Source: Olsenella profusa (GTDB lineage: Bacteria > Actinomycetota > Coriobacteriia > Coriobacteriales > Atopobiaceae). Taken from it: 64,000 bases of DNA. A model generated the notes under the pieces. That model did no database searches. It was not told the origin of the DNA and saw only the letters and a list, made by a program, of their open reading frames with translations. Location: positions 1 through 64,000 of the forward strand of contig NZ_JACSNQ010000011.1 in the NCBI RefSeq assembly GCF_016900315.1, given 5' to 3'. Below are positions 13,662-50,861 of the stretch, piece by piece. The position numbers were made by a program, and so were the translations under genes. Positions within the stretch are counted from its first letter, which is position 1; every line of letters begins with the position of its first letter.

Positions 13662-14147
13662 ATGAGGAAATCTACGTTCATCGGTAACTTTGTCGCGTGG
13701 GTGGTCGTGGCGGCGGTCTGCATCGCGTTTCTCGCGTGGTACCACATGAGCGACATGACCGTGGTGGCCGACGTGCTGGGCGACTCGCCGCTGGCGCAGC
13801 TTGGCGTGGTGCTGGCCGCGCCGGTGCTGCTCTACGCCATCGGGGTGATCTTGGGCCTCATGGTGCTCTGGTTCAAGAAGATCACGCTGGGCCACGCCTT
13901 CAAGCTGCTGTGGCGCGTGCTCGGGATTGTGGGGCTCGCGGTCCTTGCTCTGGCGGCGGTGCCGCTGCTGGGCGGCGACGCGGCCCAGGCCTTCATGTGG
14001 GCGTCGGTCATCGTGGTCTACGTCTCCGTGGCCGCGCCGATCCTCATCATGGTCTTCGGGTTCTTCTACGCGCTCGGCTGCGCGGGCACGGACAAGAGCC
14101 GCCGCGGGCCGTTTGCCAAGTACCTGCCGGACGACCACTTCGAGTAG
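13662..14147 (+). CDS. Small membrane protein of unknown function
   Basis: I do not recognise this 161-aa protein. It has four hydrophobic segments (about 8-26, 46-70, 82-102 and 112-135), a Lys-containing loop and a short acidic, charged C-terminus (DKSRRGPFAKYLPDDHFE) likely in the cytoplasm. The start ATG 13662 follows GGAGG at a long spacing of 15 bases. A TATACT -10-like element sits at 13571-13576 in the 129-base divergent gap shared with the hemolysin III gene. A family A repeat array follows downstream. Confidence 0.65.
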   Translation: MRKSTFIGNFVAWVVVAAVCIAFLAWYHMSDMTVVADVLGDSPLAQLGVVLAAPVLLYAIGVILGLMVLWFKKITLGHAFKLLWRVLGIVGLAVLALAAVPLLGGDAAQAFMWASVIVVYVSVAAPILIMVFGFFYALGCAGTDKSRRGPFAKYLPDDHFE

Positions 14148-14205: not shown

Positions 14206-14384
14206 GGCGCACCGTTTTCGGACGTTTTTCTCGCCAGAAACGTCCGAGAACGGTGCGCCCAGTTGTGACGCACCGTTACCGGACACTTTTCTCGTCGGGA
14301 CCGTCCGAGAACAGTACATCAACGGTTTATGTACCGTCTTAGGACGCTCCGGGTGAGAAGAACGACCGAAAACGGTGCGTGATC
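14206..14384. repeat. Family A hairpin array, three copies
   Basis: Three imperfect palindromes of about 54 bp start at 14206, 14267 and 14330, a period of 61-63. In copy 1, GCGCACCGTTTTCGGACGTTT pairs with its complement with a single G-T mismatch, leaving the loop TTCTCGCCAG. Copies 2 and 3 are more diverged; copy 3 carries GAGAAGAAC in the other orientation. The array fills the gap between the small membrane protein and the DUF554 gene (14148-14495). Related arrays lie at 31830 and 38326. Confidence 0.85.
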
Positions 14385-14495
14385 CGCGCCGTAGGACCCG
14401 GTCAGTCCTGCCCCGAGGCAAACGTCTTGTCTGCCCAACGGTCACGTGCCGTACAATGCGCACGGCGCACAGGCGAGAAGAACGGGCGGCAGCAC

Positions 14496-15221
14496 ATGAT
14501 CGGACTCGGGACCATCATCAACGTGGCACTTATCGTGGCCGGCGGAGCCGTGGGGCTGCTTGCCGGGCGGCTTGTGCCGGAGCGCGTGCAGGAGGGCCTG
14601 CTGCGCGCCACGGGCGTGGCCGTGCTCTTCATCGGGCTGGCCGGGGCGCTCGCGGGCATGCTCTCGGTGGGGGAGGACGGCGCGATGGTCTCGGGCGGGA
14701 GCGCCCTGGTGGTGGCGTCGCTGGCCCTGGGAACGCTCGTGGGCGAGCTGCTTGACATCAGCGCGTGGTTCGAGCGGCTGGGCACGTGGCTGCGGCGCGT
14801 CTCCGGCAACCAGGACAACGCTCGCTTTCTTGACGCCTTTCTCACGGCAACCTTCACCGTGTGCATCGGCGCCATGGCGGTGGTGGGCGCCATTCAGGAC
14901 GGGATCCTCGGCGACTGGTCCACGCTGGCGCTCAAGGGCGTGCTCGACGCGCTCATCATCGCCTCGATGGCGGCGTCGATGGGCGTGGGCTGCCTCTTTG
15001 CGGCGGTGCCGGTGGCGGTGCTGCAGGGCTCGGTGACGCTGCTCGCGCGGCTCCTCTCGCCGCTCATGACGGACGCGGCGCTCGCGAGCCTCTCGTGCGT
15101 GGGGTCGATCCTCATCTTCTGCGTGGGCGTGAACCTCGTGCGTGAGCGCACGTTCAACACCGCCAACATGCTGCCCGCGGTGGTCGTGGCGGTTGCGCTG
15201 GCGCTCGTGGGGGTGGCATAG
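14496..15221 (+). CDS. DUF554 family membrane protein
   Basis: A 241-aa protein of the DUF554 (YdfK-like) family with seven hydrophobic segments. It begins MIGLGTIINVALIVAGG, as family members do, and has the conserved TATFTVCIGAMAVVGAIQDG segment near residue 125. Function is unknown; a transport-like role has been suggested for the family. ATG 14496 is chosen from the family N-terminus; no strong ribosome binding site is seen, and a GGCGAGAAGAAC word lies about 15 bases upstream. A terminator follows at 15284. Confidence 0.9.
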   Translation: MIGLGTIINVALIVAGGAVGLLAGRLVPERVQEGLLRATGVAVLFIGLAGALAGMLSVGEDGAMVSGGSALVVASLALGTLVGELLDISAWFERLGTWLRRVSGNQDNARFLDAFLTATFTVCIGAMAVVGAIQDGILGDWSTLALKGVLDALIIASMAASMGVGCLFAAVPVAVLQGSVTLLARLLSPLMTDAALASLSCVGSILIFCVGVNLVRERTFNTANMLPAVVVAVALALVGVA

Positions 15222-30886: not shown

Positions 30887-31741
30887 ATGGCACGGGTCAT
30901 CATCACGGCGGAGACGGGCTGCGACATCCCGGCCGCGGAGGCGGCCGAGCTGGGCGTGGAGCTCGTCCCGATGCACGTGACCATCGGCGACAAGACCATC
31001 GACGACGGCACGATCTCGCCCTCAGAGATGCTCGAGCAGTGCCGTCAGCTCGGCGTGCTGCCGCGCACGAGCGGCTGCGTGCCGGCTGACTTCCAGGCCG
31101 CCTTCGACCGCATCCACGCCGCGGCGCCCGACGCCCAGATCCTGCACCTCGCCTACTCGGCGGTGACCACCTGCTCGCTCGAGTCCGCGCTCACGGCGGC
31201 CGAGGGGCGCGACTACGTGACCACCCTCGACACCCAGCACGTCACAGTGGGCCAGGGCCTCGTGGTGCGCGAGACGGCCGCCTGGCTGCGCGCGCACCCG
31301 GAGGCCGACGTGGCCGCGGCGCGCGACTTCGCCGCGGGCGTGGCCGCGCGGGTGCGCATGGCGTTTCTGCCCGGGGACCTCGGCTACCTGCGCGCCGGCG
31401 GGCGCCTCTCCAACGTGGCCTTCCTCGGCGCCACGCTGCTCAAGATCAAACCGGTGGTGGAGCTCCGGGAGGGCCGGCTCGTGGCCACCAAGAAGCTCCG
31501 CGGCTCGATGTCCGGGGCGGCGGTGAGCCTCATCGACTACCTGGCGCTGCGCGAGGAGTTCGACCCCGCGCGCATCGTCTTCGTGAAGAGCCCGGGGCTG
31601 CCCGACCAGGTGCGCGCCGCGGCCACCGAGCACGCCCAGGGCCTCGGCTTTGCGCAGGTCGAGTGGTACGAGACCGGGAACGTCATCACCTCGCACTGCG
31701 GCCCGGGCGCCATCGGCGTGGCGCTGCTCGCCAAGGCATAG
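30887..31741 (+). CDS. DegV family fatty-acid-binding protein
   Basis: A 284-aa DegV-family protein; characterised members (FakB) bind a fatty acid and hand it to the kinase FakA. N-terminal TAETGCDIPAAEAAELGVELVPM, the RTSGCVPADF loop with the ligand-contacting Ser/Thr, LAYSAVTTCSLES and the C-terminal HCGPGAIGVALLA are typical. ATG 30887 follows GGGGAGGGG. No fakA is in the window, so the fatty-acid role is by family. A -10-like TACAAT is at 30795. A family A repeat array follows. Confidence 0.92.
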   Translation: MARVIITAETGCDIPAAEAAELGVELVPMHVTIGDKTIDDGTISPSEMLEQCRQLGVLPRTSGCVPADFQAAFDRIHAAAPDAQILHLAYSAVTTCSLESALTAAEGRDYVTTLDTQHVTVGQGLVVRETAAWLRAHPEADVAAARDFAAGVAARVRMAFLPGDLGYLRAGGRLSNVAFLGATLLKIKPVVELREGRLVATKKLRGSMSGAAVSLIDYLALREEFDPARIVFVKSPGLPDQVRAAATEHAQGLGFAQVEWYETGNVITSHCGPGAIGVALLAKA

Positions 31742-31829: not shown

Positions 31830-32070
31830 GACGCACCGTTCTCGGACGGTTTTCTCGCCGAGAACGTCCGCAGGCGGTGCGCACATCCTGGGCCGCACCG
31901 TTCCTGGACGGTTTTCTTACCGAGACCGTCCGCAGACGGTACGCGCTCCCGGGGCCGCACTGTTCCCGGACGCCTTGGAGGAAAGATTCGTCCGCAGACG
32001 GTGCGCGCCCCCGGGCCGCACTGTTCCCGGACGGTTTTCTCGCCAGGACCGTCCGCAGGCGGTACGTGCG
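31830..32070. repeat. Family A hairpin array, four copies
   Basis: Copies start at 31830, 31892, 31954 and 32015, a period of 61-62. Each has a left arm like GCACCGTTCTCGGACGGTT, a loop usually containing TTCTCGCC, and a right arm like ACGTCCGCAGGCGGTGCG. Copy 3 has a diverged loop (CCTTGGAGGAAAG). Compensated changes in the arms, such as GCACTG or GGTACG, keep partial pairing. Partial right halves with GAGAAGGACC(G/A)TCCGC occur at 31808 and 34582. The array fills the DegV-FeoAB gap (31742-32190). Confidence 0.85.
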
Positions 32071-32190: not shown

Positions 32191-34548
32191 ATGACGCTGG
32201 ACGAGCTTGAGATCGGCAAGGACGCGGTGGTCGCGTCGGTGGACTGCGAGGAGGCGTCGCTCCGGCAGCACATCCTGGACATGGGGCTCACGCCGGGCGT
32301 GGAGGTCACGCTCATGAAGCGCGCCCCGATGGGGGACCCGCTGGAGATCCGCCTGCGCGGCTACGAGCTCACGCTGCGCTCGGCCGACGCGGCGCACATC
32401 ACGCTCACCGGCGTCCATGACGCCCACGAGGCCGCCCAGGGCGCCGAGCGCATCGAGGCATCCGCGCACCCGGCCATCGGCGAGCGTGCCTATGCGCCGC
32501 GGCGCGCGGGCTCGGTGGTGGCGGAGGGCCACCCGCTCAGCTTTGCCCTCGCCGGCAACCAGAACTGTGGCAAGACCACGCTCTTCAACGCGCTCACGGG
32601 CTCCAACCAGCACGTGGGCAACTTCCCGGGCGTCACCGTCGACCGCAAGGACGGCCAGATCAAGGGTCACCCCGAGGCCACGATCACCGACCTGCCCGGC
32701 ATCTACTCGCTCTCCCCCTACACGAGCGAGGAGGTGGTGAGCCGCCGCTTCATCCTCGAGGAGAGCCCGGACGCGATCATCGACATCGTGGACGCCACCA
32801 ACATCGAGCGCAACCTCTACCTGACGCTGCAGCTGATCGAGCTCGACCGGCCGATGGTGCTTGCCCTCAACATGATGGACGAGCTCACCGAGAACGGCGG
32901 TACCGTCGACGTCAACCGCCTGGAGGCGACGCTCGGCATCCCGGTGGTGCCGATCTCGGCGGCCAAGGAGGAGGGCATCTCCGAGCTCGTGGAGCACGCG
33001 CTGCACGTGGCGCGCTTCCGCGAGCACCCCGGGCGCATTGACTTCTGCGACGAGCACGGCGCCGACGGCGGCGCGCTGCACCGCTGCATCCACGGTATCT
33101 GCCACATCATCGAGGACCACGCTGACGCGGCGAACCTGCCGGTGCGCTTTGCGGCAACCAAGCTCATCGAGGGCGACCACCTCGTGGTGAGCGCGCTCAA
33201 CCTTGAGCAGAACGAGCTCGACGCCGTGGAGCACATCATCACGCAGATGGAGGACGAGTCCGGGCACGACCGCATGGCGGCCCTCGCGGACATGCGCTTC
33301 TCGTTCATCGAAGGGGTGTGCGCGGCGTGCGTGGTCAAGCCGCACGAGAGCCGCGAGCACGCGCGCTCGGTGGCGGCCGACCGCATCCTCACGGGCAAGT
33401 ACACCGCCATCCCCGTCTTCATCGCCATCATGGCGCTCGTGTTCTGGGTGACCTTCAGCCTGGTGGGCCAGCGCCTCTCCGACCTGCTGCAGCTGGGGAT
33501 CGACTGGGTGACGGAGGCGGCGGACGCGGGGCTCACGGCCTTCGGCATCAACCCGGTGGTCCACTCCCTGGTGATCGACGGCGTCTTTGCCGGCGTGGGC
33601 ACGGTGCTCACCTTCATGCCGATCATCGTGGTGCTCTTCATCCTGCTCTCGGTGCTCGAGGACTCCGGCTATATGGCGCGCGTGGCCTTCGTGATGGACA
33701 AGCTGCTGCGACGCCTGGGCCTCTCCGGCCGTAGCTTCGTGCCGATGCTCATCGGCTTCGGCTGCTCGGTGCCCGCGATCATGGCCACGCGCACCCTGCC
33801 CTCCGAGCACGACCGCAAGATGACGGTCCTGCTCACCCCGTTCATGAGCTGCTCGGCCAAGCTGCCGGTCTACGCGCTCTTCGCCGGCCTCTTCTTCCCG
33901 GACACGGCGCCCCTCGTGATGGTGGGGCTCTACGTCCTGGGCATGGTCGTGGGCGTGGTGGCCGCGCTCGTGCTCAAGAACACGGCCTTCCGCGGCGACC
34001 CGGTGCCCTTTGTGATGGAGCTGCCCAACTACCGCCTGCCGAGCCTGCGCACCACGATGCGTCTGGCCTGGGACAAGGCCAAGGACTTCATCACGCGCGC
34101 GTTCACGATCATCTTCGTGGCGAGCGTGGTGATCTGGTTCCTGCAGACCTTCGACGTCCGCCTCAACGTGGTGGCCGACCAGTCCCAGAGCATGCTCGCG
34201 CAGCTCGGCGCCCTCATCTCGCCGATCTTTGCCCCGCTGGGCTTTGGCAGCTGGATTGCGGTGGCGGCGCTCGTCGCGGGCTTCGGTGCCAAGGAGAACG
34301 TCGTGGCCACCCTCACGGTTCTGCTCGGCGGGTCCACGGCGGCGCTGGTCGGGCTCTTCACGCCGTTCACGGCCTTCTGCTTCCTGTGCTTCGTGCTGCT
34401 CTATACTCCGTGCGTGGCGGCGATCTCCGCGGTGAGAAACGAACTCGGCGGGCGCTACGCGGCGGTGGTCGTGGTGATGCAGTGTGTGGTGGCGTGGGTC
34501 GTGACGTTTGCGGCGCACGCGATCGGCATGGCGCTCGGGCTCGCGTAG
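32191..34548 (+). CDS. feoB: Ferrous iron transporter, FeoA-FeoB fusion
   Basis: A 785-aa fusion. Residues 1-75 form a FeoA SH3-like domain (ILDMGLTPGVEVTLMKRAPMG). A linker of about 40 residues follows, then the FeoB G domain: G1 AGNQNCGKTTLFNALTG at about 121, G2 GVTVD, G3 DLPGIYSLSPYTSEE and G4 NMMDEL. The helical domain and the membrane part with two Gate motifs (FGCSVPAIMATR near 525 and LTPFMSCSAKLPVYALFAG near 550) complete it. It imports Fe2+ under anaerobic conditions. G1 has Asn-Gln in place of the more common Asn-Pro. ATG 32191 is chosen from the FeoA N-terminus. A TAGAAT -10-like element lies at 32147-32152. Confidence 0.96.
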   Translation: MTLDELEIGKDAVVASVDCEEASLRQHILDMGLTPGVEVTLMKRAPMGDPLEIRLRGYELTLRSADAAHITLTGVHDAHEAAQGAERIEASAHPAIGERAYAPRRAGSVVAEGHPLSFALAGNQNCGKTTLFNALTGSNQHVGNFPGVTVDRKDGQIKGHPEATITDLPGIYSLSPYTSEEVVSRRFILEESPDAIIDIVDATNIERNLYLTLQLIELDRPMVLALNMMDELTENGGTVDVNRLEATLGIPVVPISAAKEEGISELVEHALHVARFREHPGRIDFCDEHGADGGALHRCIHGICHIIEDHADAANLPVRFAATKLIEGDHLVVSALNLEQNELDAVEHIITQMEDESGHDRMAALADMRFSFIEGVCAACVVKPHESREHARSVAADRILTGKYTAIPVFIAIMALVFWVTFSLVGQRLSDLLQLGIDWVTEAADAGLTAFGINPVVHSLVIDGVFAGVGTVLTFMPIIVVLFILLSVLEDSGYMARVAFVMDKLLRRLGLSGRSFVPMLIGFGCSVPAIMATRTLPSEHDRKMTVLLTPFMSCSAKLPVYALFAGLFFPDTAPLVMVGLYVLGMVVGVVAALVLKNTAFRGDPVPFVMELPNYRLPSLRTTMRLAWDKAKDFITRAFTIIFVASVVIWFLQTFDVRLNVVADQSQSMLAQLGALISPIFAPLGFGSWIAVAALVAGFGAKENVVATLTVLLGGSTAALVGLFTPFTAFCFLCFVLLYTPCVAAISAVRNELGGRYAAVVVVMQCVVAWVVTFAAHAIGMALGLA

Positions 34549-37478: not shown

Positions 37479-38288
37479 ATGGCTGACAAGAAGAACCCCG
37501 CCGCGACCCCCGGCGAGAAGAGCCCTGCCGACGCGTCCGTCACGGACGCGGGCAGCGACCCGCTCGGCACCACCTACCACCGCGGCCCCGTGATCATGCG
37601 CGGGCCGATGATCCCCTCCGACACCACCACCGGCAACCTGCTCGCGCCCGAGAGCTCCACCGACTGGCTGCACATGGACCCGTGGCGCGTGCTGCGCATA
37701 CAGGCCGAGTTCGTGGACGGCTTCGGTGCGCTCGCGGAGCTGGGCCCGGCCGTGACCTGCTTCGGCTCGGCGCGGACGCCGCGCACAGACCCGATGTACC
37801 GCGCCGCGCGCCACGTGGGCAGAAAGCTCGCGCAGGCCGGCGTGGCCGTGATCACCGGCGGCGGCCCCGGCATCATGGAGGCCGTTAACTGCGGCGCGGC
37901 CCGCGCGGGAGGCAAGTCCGTGGGCCTGGGCATCGAGCTGCCGCACGAGCAGGGCATCAACAAGTGGGTCAACCTCGGCATGACGTTTCGCTACTTCTTC
38001 GTGCGCAAGACGATGTTCGTCAAGTACTCGAGCGGCGCGATCATCTTCCCGGGCGGCTTCGGCACGCTCGACGAGACCTTCGAGCTGCTCACGCTGGTCC
38101 AGACGCACAAGGTCACGCGCACGCCGGTGGTGCTCTTCGGCTCCGACTACTGGCAGGGGCTCATGGAGTGGCTCGAGGGCACGGTGGCCGGCGCGGGCAA
38201 CATCTCGCCGCTGGACCCGGAGCTCGTCGTGGTGACCGACGACGAGGACGAGGCCGTGCGTGTGGCGCTGAGCGAGATCCACCGGTAG
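37479..38288 (+). CDS. LOG-family Rossmann protein (TIGR00730)
   Basis: A 269-aa LOG family protein; characterised members are cytokinin riboside 5'-monophosphate phosphoribohydrolases or AMP/PpnN-like nucleosidases. Marks are ITGGGPGIMEAVNCGA near residue 125 and FPGGFGTLDETFELLTLVQ near 190. The first 60 residues are a polar extension absent from short LOGs, with GEKS coded by the dispersed word. GAAAGGAGCC precedes ATG 37479. In bacteria a nucleotide-salvage role is more likely than hormone synthesis. Confidence 0.92.
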   Translation: MADKKNPAATPGEKSPADASVTDAGSDPLGTTYHRGPVIMRGPMIPSDTTTGNLLAPESSTDWLHMDPWRVLRIQAEFVDGFGALAELGPAVTCFGSARTPRTDPMYRAARHVGRKLAQAGVAVITGGGPGIMEAVNCGAARAGGKSVGLGIELPHEQGINKWVNLGMTFRYFFVRKTMFVKYSSGAIIFPGGFGTLDETFELLTLVQTHKVTRTPVVLFGSDYWQGLMEWLEGTVAGAGNISPLDPELVVVTDDEDEAVRVALSEIHR

Positions 38289-38325: not shown

Positions 38326-38507
38326 GACGCACCGTTGGCGGACGTTTTTCTCGCCCAGAACGTCCTAAAACGGTGCGCGGAGAGAAGGACGTACTGTTTC
38401 CGGACGGTCTTCTCGCCAAGAACGTCCAAAAACAGTGCGCGGCCGGAATGGCGAGAAGGACGCACCGTCACCGGACGTTCTTCTCGCCTAGACGACCCGT
38501 AGAGCGG
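38326..38507. repeat. Family A hairpin array, three copies
   Basis: Copies start at 38326, 38388 and 38459. Copy 1 pairs GCACCGTTGGCGGACGTT with AACGTCCTAAAACGGTGC around TTTTCTCGCCCAG. Copy 2 has TACTGT/ACAGTGC arms, a paired change that largely preserves the hairpin. Copy 3 has lost much of its right arm. The array lies between the convergent LOG and HPr-like genes. Confidence 0.85.
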
Positions 38508-38535: not shown

Positions 38536-38790
38536 TCAGAACGTGGCCAGCAGCTTCCTGATCGCCTCTCCGGCGGTGGCCTCGTCGGGGCCGTCAACGC
38601 GCACCACGACGTGCTCGCCGGGACGGACGCCCAGCATCATGAGGTCGAACGTCTGCCGCGCGTCGACCGTGCGGCCCGCGTGGGTGAGGGTGACACGGCT
38701 GCGCCAGCGCGCCGCCTCGCCGGCAAGCAGCACCGCGAGCTGCACGTGCAGCCCCAGCGGGTCGGTGATGTCACAGGGTAGCTCGAGCAT
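38536..38790 (-). CDS. HPr-family phosphocarrier-like protein
   Basis: An 84-aa HPr-fold protein. The His of the active site is kept in DPLGLHVQLAVLLA near residue 14, but the usual Arg two residues later (HARP) is Gln, and Pro is Leu. The regulatory Ser46 region reads ARQTFDLMMLG, without the canonical Lys-Ser-Ile. The C-terminal helix ATAGEAIRKLLATF is normal. It may be a specialised phosphocarrier for the sucrose PTS nearby, or a degenerate HPr (Crh-like in reverse: His kept, Ser lost). ATG 38790 follows GAGAGG. Confidence 0.8.
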   Translation of the reverse strand: MLELPCDITDPLGLHVQLAVLLAGEAARWRSRVTLTHAGRTVDARQTFDLMMLGVRPGEHVVVRVDGPDEATAGEAIRKLLATF

Positions 38791-50725: not shown

Positions 50726-50861
50726 GGCTGGGCGAGAAGGGCAACGGGGCGAGAAGGACGGCTGGGCGAGAAGGGCAACGGGGCGAGAAGGACGGCTGGG
50801 CGAGAAGGGCAACGGGGCGATAAGGACGCGCTGGCGAGAAGGACAACGGGGCGACAAGGAC
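50726..50861. repeat. Family D: 34-bp tandem repeat, four units
   Basis: Units start at 50726, 50760, 50794 and 50828. Each contains two copies of the dispersed word: GGCGAGAAGGGCAACG and GGGCGAGAAGGAC. Units 1 and 2 are identical, unit 3 differs by one base, unit 4 by several. The array lies between the MATE remnant and the proton ATPase gene. Confidence 0.9.

Follow-up and report, generated by a model that had tools for sequence, protein, structure and literature searches.

What are the short palindromes that are repeated in tandem between a degV-family gene and feoAB in this gut actinobacterium (genus Thermophilibacter; 2.07 Mb assembly)? In the 64,000-nucleotide stretch of DNA that we analysed (the window), the same sequences, which we will call family A, recur at two other loci. 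A sequence-only reading of the window had reported tandem palindromes at three loci, and these are real: there are nine complete units, and a tenth that has decayed to a half-unit, over 14208–14380, 31832–32067, and 38328–38490, with steps within arrays of 61–62 bp. (The arrays have no assigned strand. Units were located with a covariance model and by sequence; genes were called by codon bias and their families assigned with Pfam.) The array in the degV–feoAB gap (array B, 31832–32067) has four units, at 31832–31882, 31894–31944, 31956–32006, and 32017–32067, with steps of 62, 62, and 61 bp. It is flanked on the left by the gene for the DegV family protein (30887–31741, + strand) and on the right by a gene for a FeoA-FeoB fusion (32191–34548, + strand). 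In one example of the core, at 31843–31871, a CGGACG arm is followed by a variable loop with TTTTCTCGCC and by a CGTCCG arm. Array A (14208–14380) has three units, at 14208–14258, 14269–14319, and 14330–14380 (step 61 bp), between a gene with no Pfam match (13662–14147, + strand) and a gene for a DUF554 membrane protein (14496–15221, + strand). Array C (38328–38440) has two units, at 38328–38378 and 38390–38440 (step 62 bp), and lies in a convergent gap between the genes for a member of the LOG/lysine-decarboxylase-like family (37479–38288, + strand) and HPr (38536–38790, − strand). A third unit of array C, at 38460–38490, has decayed: its left arm and word are intact and its right arm is degraded. 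We classed it as an unpaired arm, and it folds no better than shuffled sequences. A search of the window against Rfam gave zero family matches.

Family A extends well beyond the window. A covariance model built from the nine units recovered all nine of them (E = 1e-8 to 1e-14), and it found further copies across the genome and in its relatives (Thermophilibacter or "Olsenella" of the Atopobiaceae, which we retrieved with the window's DegV protein). With a strict palindromic pattern that allows up to two mismatches, we found at least 93 forward-pattern copies in the genome, while the reversed pattern, as a control, gave 0. (We dropped a generic 18/13 palindrome scan, which gave too much noise.) The copies form about 30 short tandem arrays between genes. 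Our statistics for arrays rest on 24 loci that were picked for containing matches, not on the whole genome; each of these arrays has 2–6 units. In the stretches around the matches, we saw no clear singletons, and isolated arms outside of pairs were at the background level only. So the earlier description of these palindromes as dispersed, tandem, not specific to any gene, and conserved in period holds for the genome and for its relatives.

The unit is an inverted pair with the architecture CG-YACYGT-N4-GGACG-N16-CGTCC-N5-CRGTR-CG. Each half-site has an outer ACYGT and an inner GGACG that are spaced by roughly one turn of the helix (from column frequencies across 184 arms). The unit is 51 bp long in 80 of 94 cases, and loop identity between units is only 0.32. 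The usual step in an array is 61–62 or 71–72 bp: of 66 distances between neighbours, 61 are 59–63 or 71–72 bp, and distances of 64–70 bp never occur. Loops of random sequence but constant length, combined with a step that shifts by about one helical turn, suggest that the geometry is under constraint.

The arrays also have a preferred setting. Among 23 arrays whose gaps could be typed, 12 are in tandem gaps, 11 are in convergent gaps (P = 0.0003), and 0 are in divergent gaps, as compared to about 6 of 23 expected (P = 0.0005). Hence every typed array sits 3' of at least one gene. The flanking genes that we scanned are mostly unrelated housekeeping genes, with others unassigned, and we found no common regulon or theme among them.

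One explanation for such palindromes is that they work as RNA or single-stranded hairpins (stabilisers of 3' UTRs, attenuators, or small RNAs) and are selected for folding. The sequence-only reading favored selection on folding, as substitutions in the arms seemed to be paired. Real units do fold better than shuffled sequences (−23.2 vs. −13.3). However, chimeric units fold slightly better still (−24.5), and a single arm gains little over shuffled sequence (−3.8 vs. −2.6). Among the nine copies in the window, the paired substitutions amount to a few cells, and covariation is the same as in shuffles. Across 92 units, there are 534 Watson-Crick matches at the variable stem positions, which is below the 586 ± 12 for randomly paired arms and the 548 ± 9 for arms shuffled within arrays. 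Furthermore, in tandem arrays, the mismatches counted on the transcript strand show no strand bias (64 G.T vs. 58 A.C), and no Rfam family matches. Thus, matched hairpins are not maintained in this genome. The relative G020 also has arms that match less often than random pairs; compensatory changes within a genome appear only in G010 and G014, where the two arms of a unit match more often than expected (P = 0.003 and 0.05). In some genomes, then, palindromy is not neutral. Across species, the arms covary strongly (0.755 vs. 0.235, using one hand-picked unit per species), but joint change would also be expected if both arms copy one species-specific motif. Overall, we consider it quite unlikely that family A is kept for its hairpins. 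The below-random matching of arms, together with near-random loops of fixed length, points instead to double-stranded half-sites at a fixed geometry. For REP dimers, Di Nocera et al. (PMC3733652) discuss the idea that those with mismatches may escape cleavage by SbcCD.

We also considered that family A might be REP or REPIN elements that are mobilised by resident RAYT transposases. Inverted doublets, ordered clusters, and placement at the 3' ends of genes all resemble REPINs, and the search for a RAYT/Y1 transposase that had been suggested for this DNA did turn up two RAYT-like Y1 genes in the genome (L069:5389–5727 and L070:9516–9851). But both are flanked by other palindromes, of the GTGAGACAGGGGGACGGA and TGAGACATTGGGGACAGG types, and the contig stretches around both genes have no family A matches. 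These palindromes (C16:5.2–6.2 kb and C11:24.4–25.4 kb) are intergenic, as family A is, yet they differ from it in sequence and they truly adjoin RAYT genes. Furthermore, the array-rich genome of G020 has 46 matches to the covariance model and no Y1 transposase gene. RAYT-driven mobilisation of family A therefore seems very unlikely.

We propose that family A works like the clusters of REP, BIME, and REPIN repeats but is best filed outside the tagged, RAYT-driven REP families, because it lacks both their defining tag and their transposase. Like the GTAG and CGTC super-families of REP/BIME repeats (PMC3733652), family A comprises short, high-copy intergenic palindromes in alternating orientation, with variable heterodimer arms and species-specific families, in tandem or convergent gaps and not in divergent ones. 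Some REPs, the CGTC families, are likewise without a transposase (PMC3733652). Unlike REP/BIME repeats, family A has as its unit an inverted pair of 51 bp, whose arms do not consistently form stem-loops; it is found only in arrays, and keeps a constant core while the outer arms change by species. We did not find a stem-loop of 20–40 bp with an unpaired GTAG or CGTC tag; in family A, the CGTC lies inside the pairing arm. The REPINs of Pseudomonas fluorescens SBW25 are also spaced inverted doublets, with a preferred spacing and with ordered tandem clusters, some of which are duplicated between loci (PMC3116915). In contrast to family A, these REPINs are mostly singlets, and their clusters are near-identical copies; all of the sampled family A units are in arrays, their loops are near random, and there is no RAYT gene beside the arrays. 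The sequence-only reading took the regular period to be unusual for REPs, but the REPs of SBW25 also have preferred distances and form tandem arrays (PMC3116915).

Comparisons with relatives suggest how the arrays might move. At least 12 other species of Thermophilibacter have the same design: the outer arms differ (they include GTGCAGGTT, GGGCCGC, and GTGCGGC), the GGACG-N16-CGTCC core is constant, and the step is mostly 61 bp, with one to 38 matches each. Beyond Thermophilibacter, the pattern is essentially absent. Two arrays that are shared with the sister species G022 lie in a stretch with 97–100% identity at fourfold sites, where the genome median is 0.72, and this block is the product of recent recombination between species. 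(The block spans several kb and links L127, which is G022:C5:16000–35999, to L076 and to the end of L087.) G020 has two copies of a 188-bp array of three units; they are 93% identical and separated by 3.2 kb, and their flanks are unrelated. Loop identity between arrays is 0.33, as compared to 0.72 for fourfold sites between G000 and G022, so the divergence of the loops predates the split of the species. Mature arrays may therefore move as blocks, or else the loops may differ from birth.

We therefore favor, at a probability of roughly 55%, the view that family A is a genus-specific and RAYT-independent relative in kind of the REP/BIME/REPIN-cluster repeats: inverted pairs of bipartite half-sites, in short tandem arrays, that remain in the gaps downstream of genes and spread there in blocks. 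A protein would recognise the arms as double-stranded DNA, perhaps as a dimer or as several dimers lined up along the same helical face, and this recognition would keep the sequence and the spacing of the arms. The arrays might spread by some transposase or by recombination. Any role for the host would be secondary; BIMEs in E. coli have been proposed to act as a sink for transcription-driven supercoiling, and family A might do likewise. Against our proposal, we found neither a mobilising enzyme nor a binding protein, and there is just one clear block copy, which lacks target-site duplications. Also, loop divergence beyond the G000/G022 split is a poor fit to the recent spread of single units.

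Alternatively, the arrays might be kept for their function and not by selfish spread, if a nucleoid, topology, or gyrase-type protein of the host binds phased palindromes at the 3' ends of genes. This would fit with the constant geometry despite random loops, with steps of 61–62 and 71–72 bp that resemble helical turns, and with the placement of the arrays; also, several proteins have been reported to bind BIMEs and REPs (PMC2817692). However, the array loci lack conservation: G022 has no array at 7 of the 9 loci that can be compared, most relatives hold something else in the degV–feo gap, and family A ranges from no copies to about 100 among members of the genus. This makes host-maintained nucleoprotein sites rather unlikely as the main explanation. 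If family A is instead a relative of the REP/BIME class, as we prefer, then it adds undescribed array-only palindromes from the Coriobacteriia to that class. The literature that we searched does not link Olsenella or Thermophilibacter to such repeats. Family A joins a constant core to species-specific arms and a fixed spacing, and has no RAYT; this combination could help to separate models of "selfish hairpins" from models of "protein-binding arrays".

The window also has a dispersed word, TTCTCGCC, which is present 76 times instead of the 3.3 times expected. An intergenic copy outside of any hairpin is at 14472–14479 (− strand; GTTCTTCTCGCC). The full 12-base word, GTYCTTCTCGCC, has 855 copies in the genome, or about one per 2.4 kb, with 413 and 442 copies on the two strands. 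It is found throughout the window (for instance at 14472, 39216, 42400, and 58468), and its core is in tandem with a 17-bp step at 50731–50844. (The window is GC-poor from 17.8 to 23.3 kb, with one 4-kb bin at 56%; this part lacks the word and has few called genes, and it may have been acquired recently.) The density of GTYCTTCTCGCC is 2.1 per kb between genes and 0.22 per kb within genes, and it is randomly oriented relative to genes. Few copies differ by one base in the core. Nearly all members of the genus have 250–670 copies, with only 40 in G027; in almost all other genera the word is at background (38 copies in G034). We found no dialects of the word in G027 or in the sister genera G032, G034, and G036.

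Do the arrays exist mainly to carry this word, a putative DNA uptake sequence, in the loops of hairpins? The sequence-only reading had equated the loop with the word. Most of the window copies do have TTCTCGCC in the loop, but genome-wide just 14 of 92 loops have the 7-mer core and 8 of 92 have the full 12-mer; the loops vary, and 85% of them lack the core. We estimate that 14 of 92 is roughly twice the intergenic background, and the core recurs in loops of G010, G014, and G020. However, the inner arm ends with GTTC or GTCC, which are the first four bases of the word, so the excess is explained by partial matches from the arm end. This explanation for the arrays is highly improbable. The word and family A are linked mainly by the gaps that they have in common and by the GTTC/GTCC arm end.

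On its own, GTYCTTCTCGCC resembles a DNA uptake sequence, and we consider it a putative one: it is non-palindromic, it is present in hundreds of copies on both strands, it is limited to the genus, and competence genes are present. ComEC and TadB/C-like proteins are encoded by all of the genus members that we searched, and having ComEC and T2SSF does not set word-rich genomes apart from word-poor ones. In Micrococcus luteus, transformation depends on a Tad/Flp pilus (PMC4322843). It is possible, and we suggest this tentatively, that Thermophilibacter marks its own DNA with the 12-base word for selective transformation, using Tad-type pili and ComEC, and that the arrays of family A are a separate matter, namely phased repeats that bind a protein and are carried from species to species along with recombining DNA. 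We know of no DNA uptake sequence outside of the Neisseriaceae and Pasteurellaceae; if this proposal is true, GTYCTTCTCGCC would be the first. The word also provides a candidate, open to direct test, for DNA uptake with self-recognition in Gram-positive bacteria. Literature matches to the word itself are to unrelated papers and look like chance.

Other repeats were noticed as well, some of them in the degV–feo gap. The degV–feo gap of G022 (L001:10879–10950) holds GGACGCACGGTGCG, which is possibly the scar of a deletion that joined the outer arms of a former unit. In L014 and L015, the same gap holds just one unit, whose arms are different (GGGCAGC...GCTGCCC), and in L017 it holds another family of tandem repeats, GTCCCAGAATSGGCGASGTTCTCC, with word-like GGCGAGAA parts. 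Finally, a second phased family, GTGTACGTACCCT, is in tandem at steps of 21 and 31/32 bp (L075:502–740, L078:9060–9144, and L078:10509–10593). At least two of the GTGTACGTACCCT arrays adjoin a module with two inverted words that are exactly 45 bp apart (5 copies sampled).
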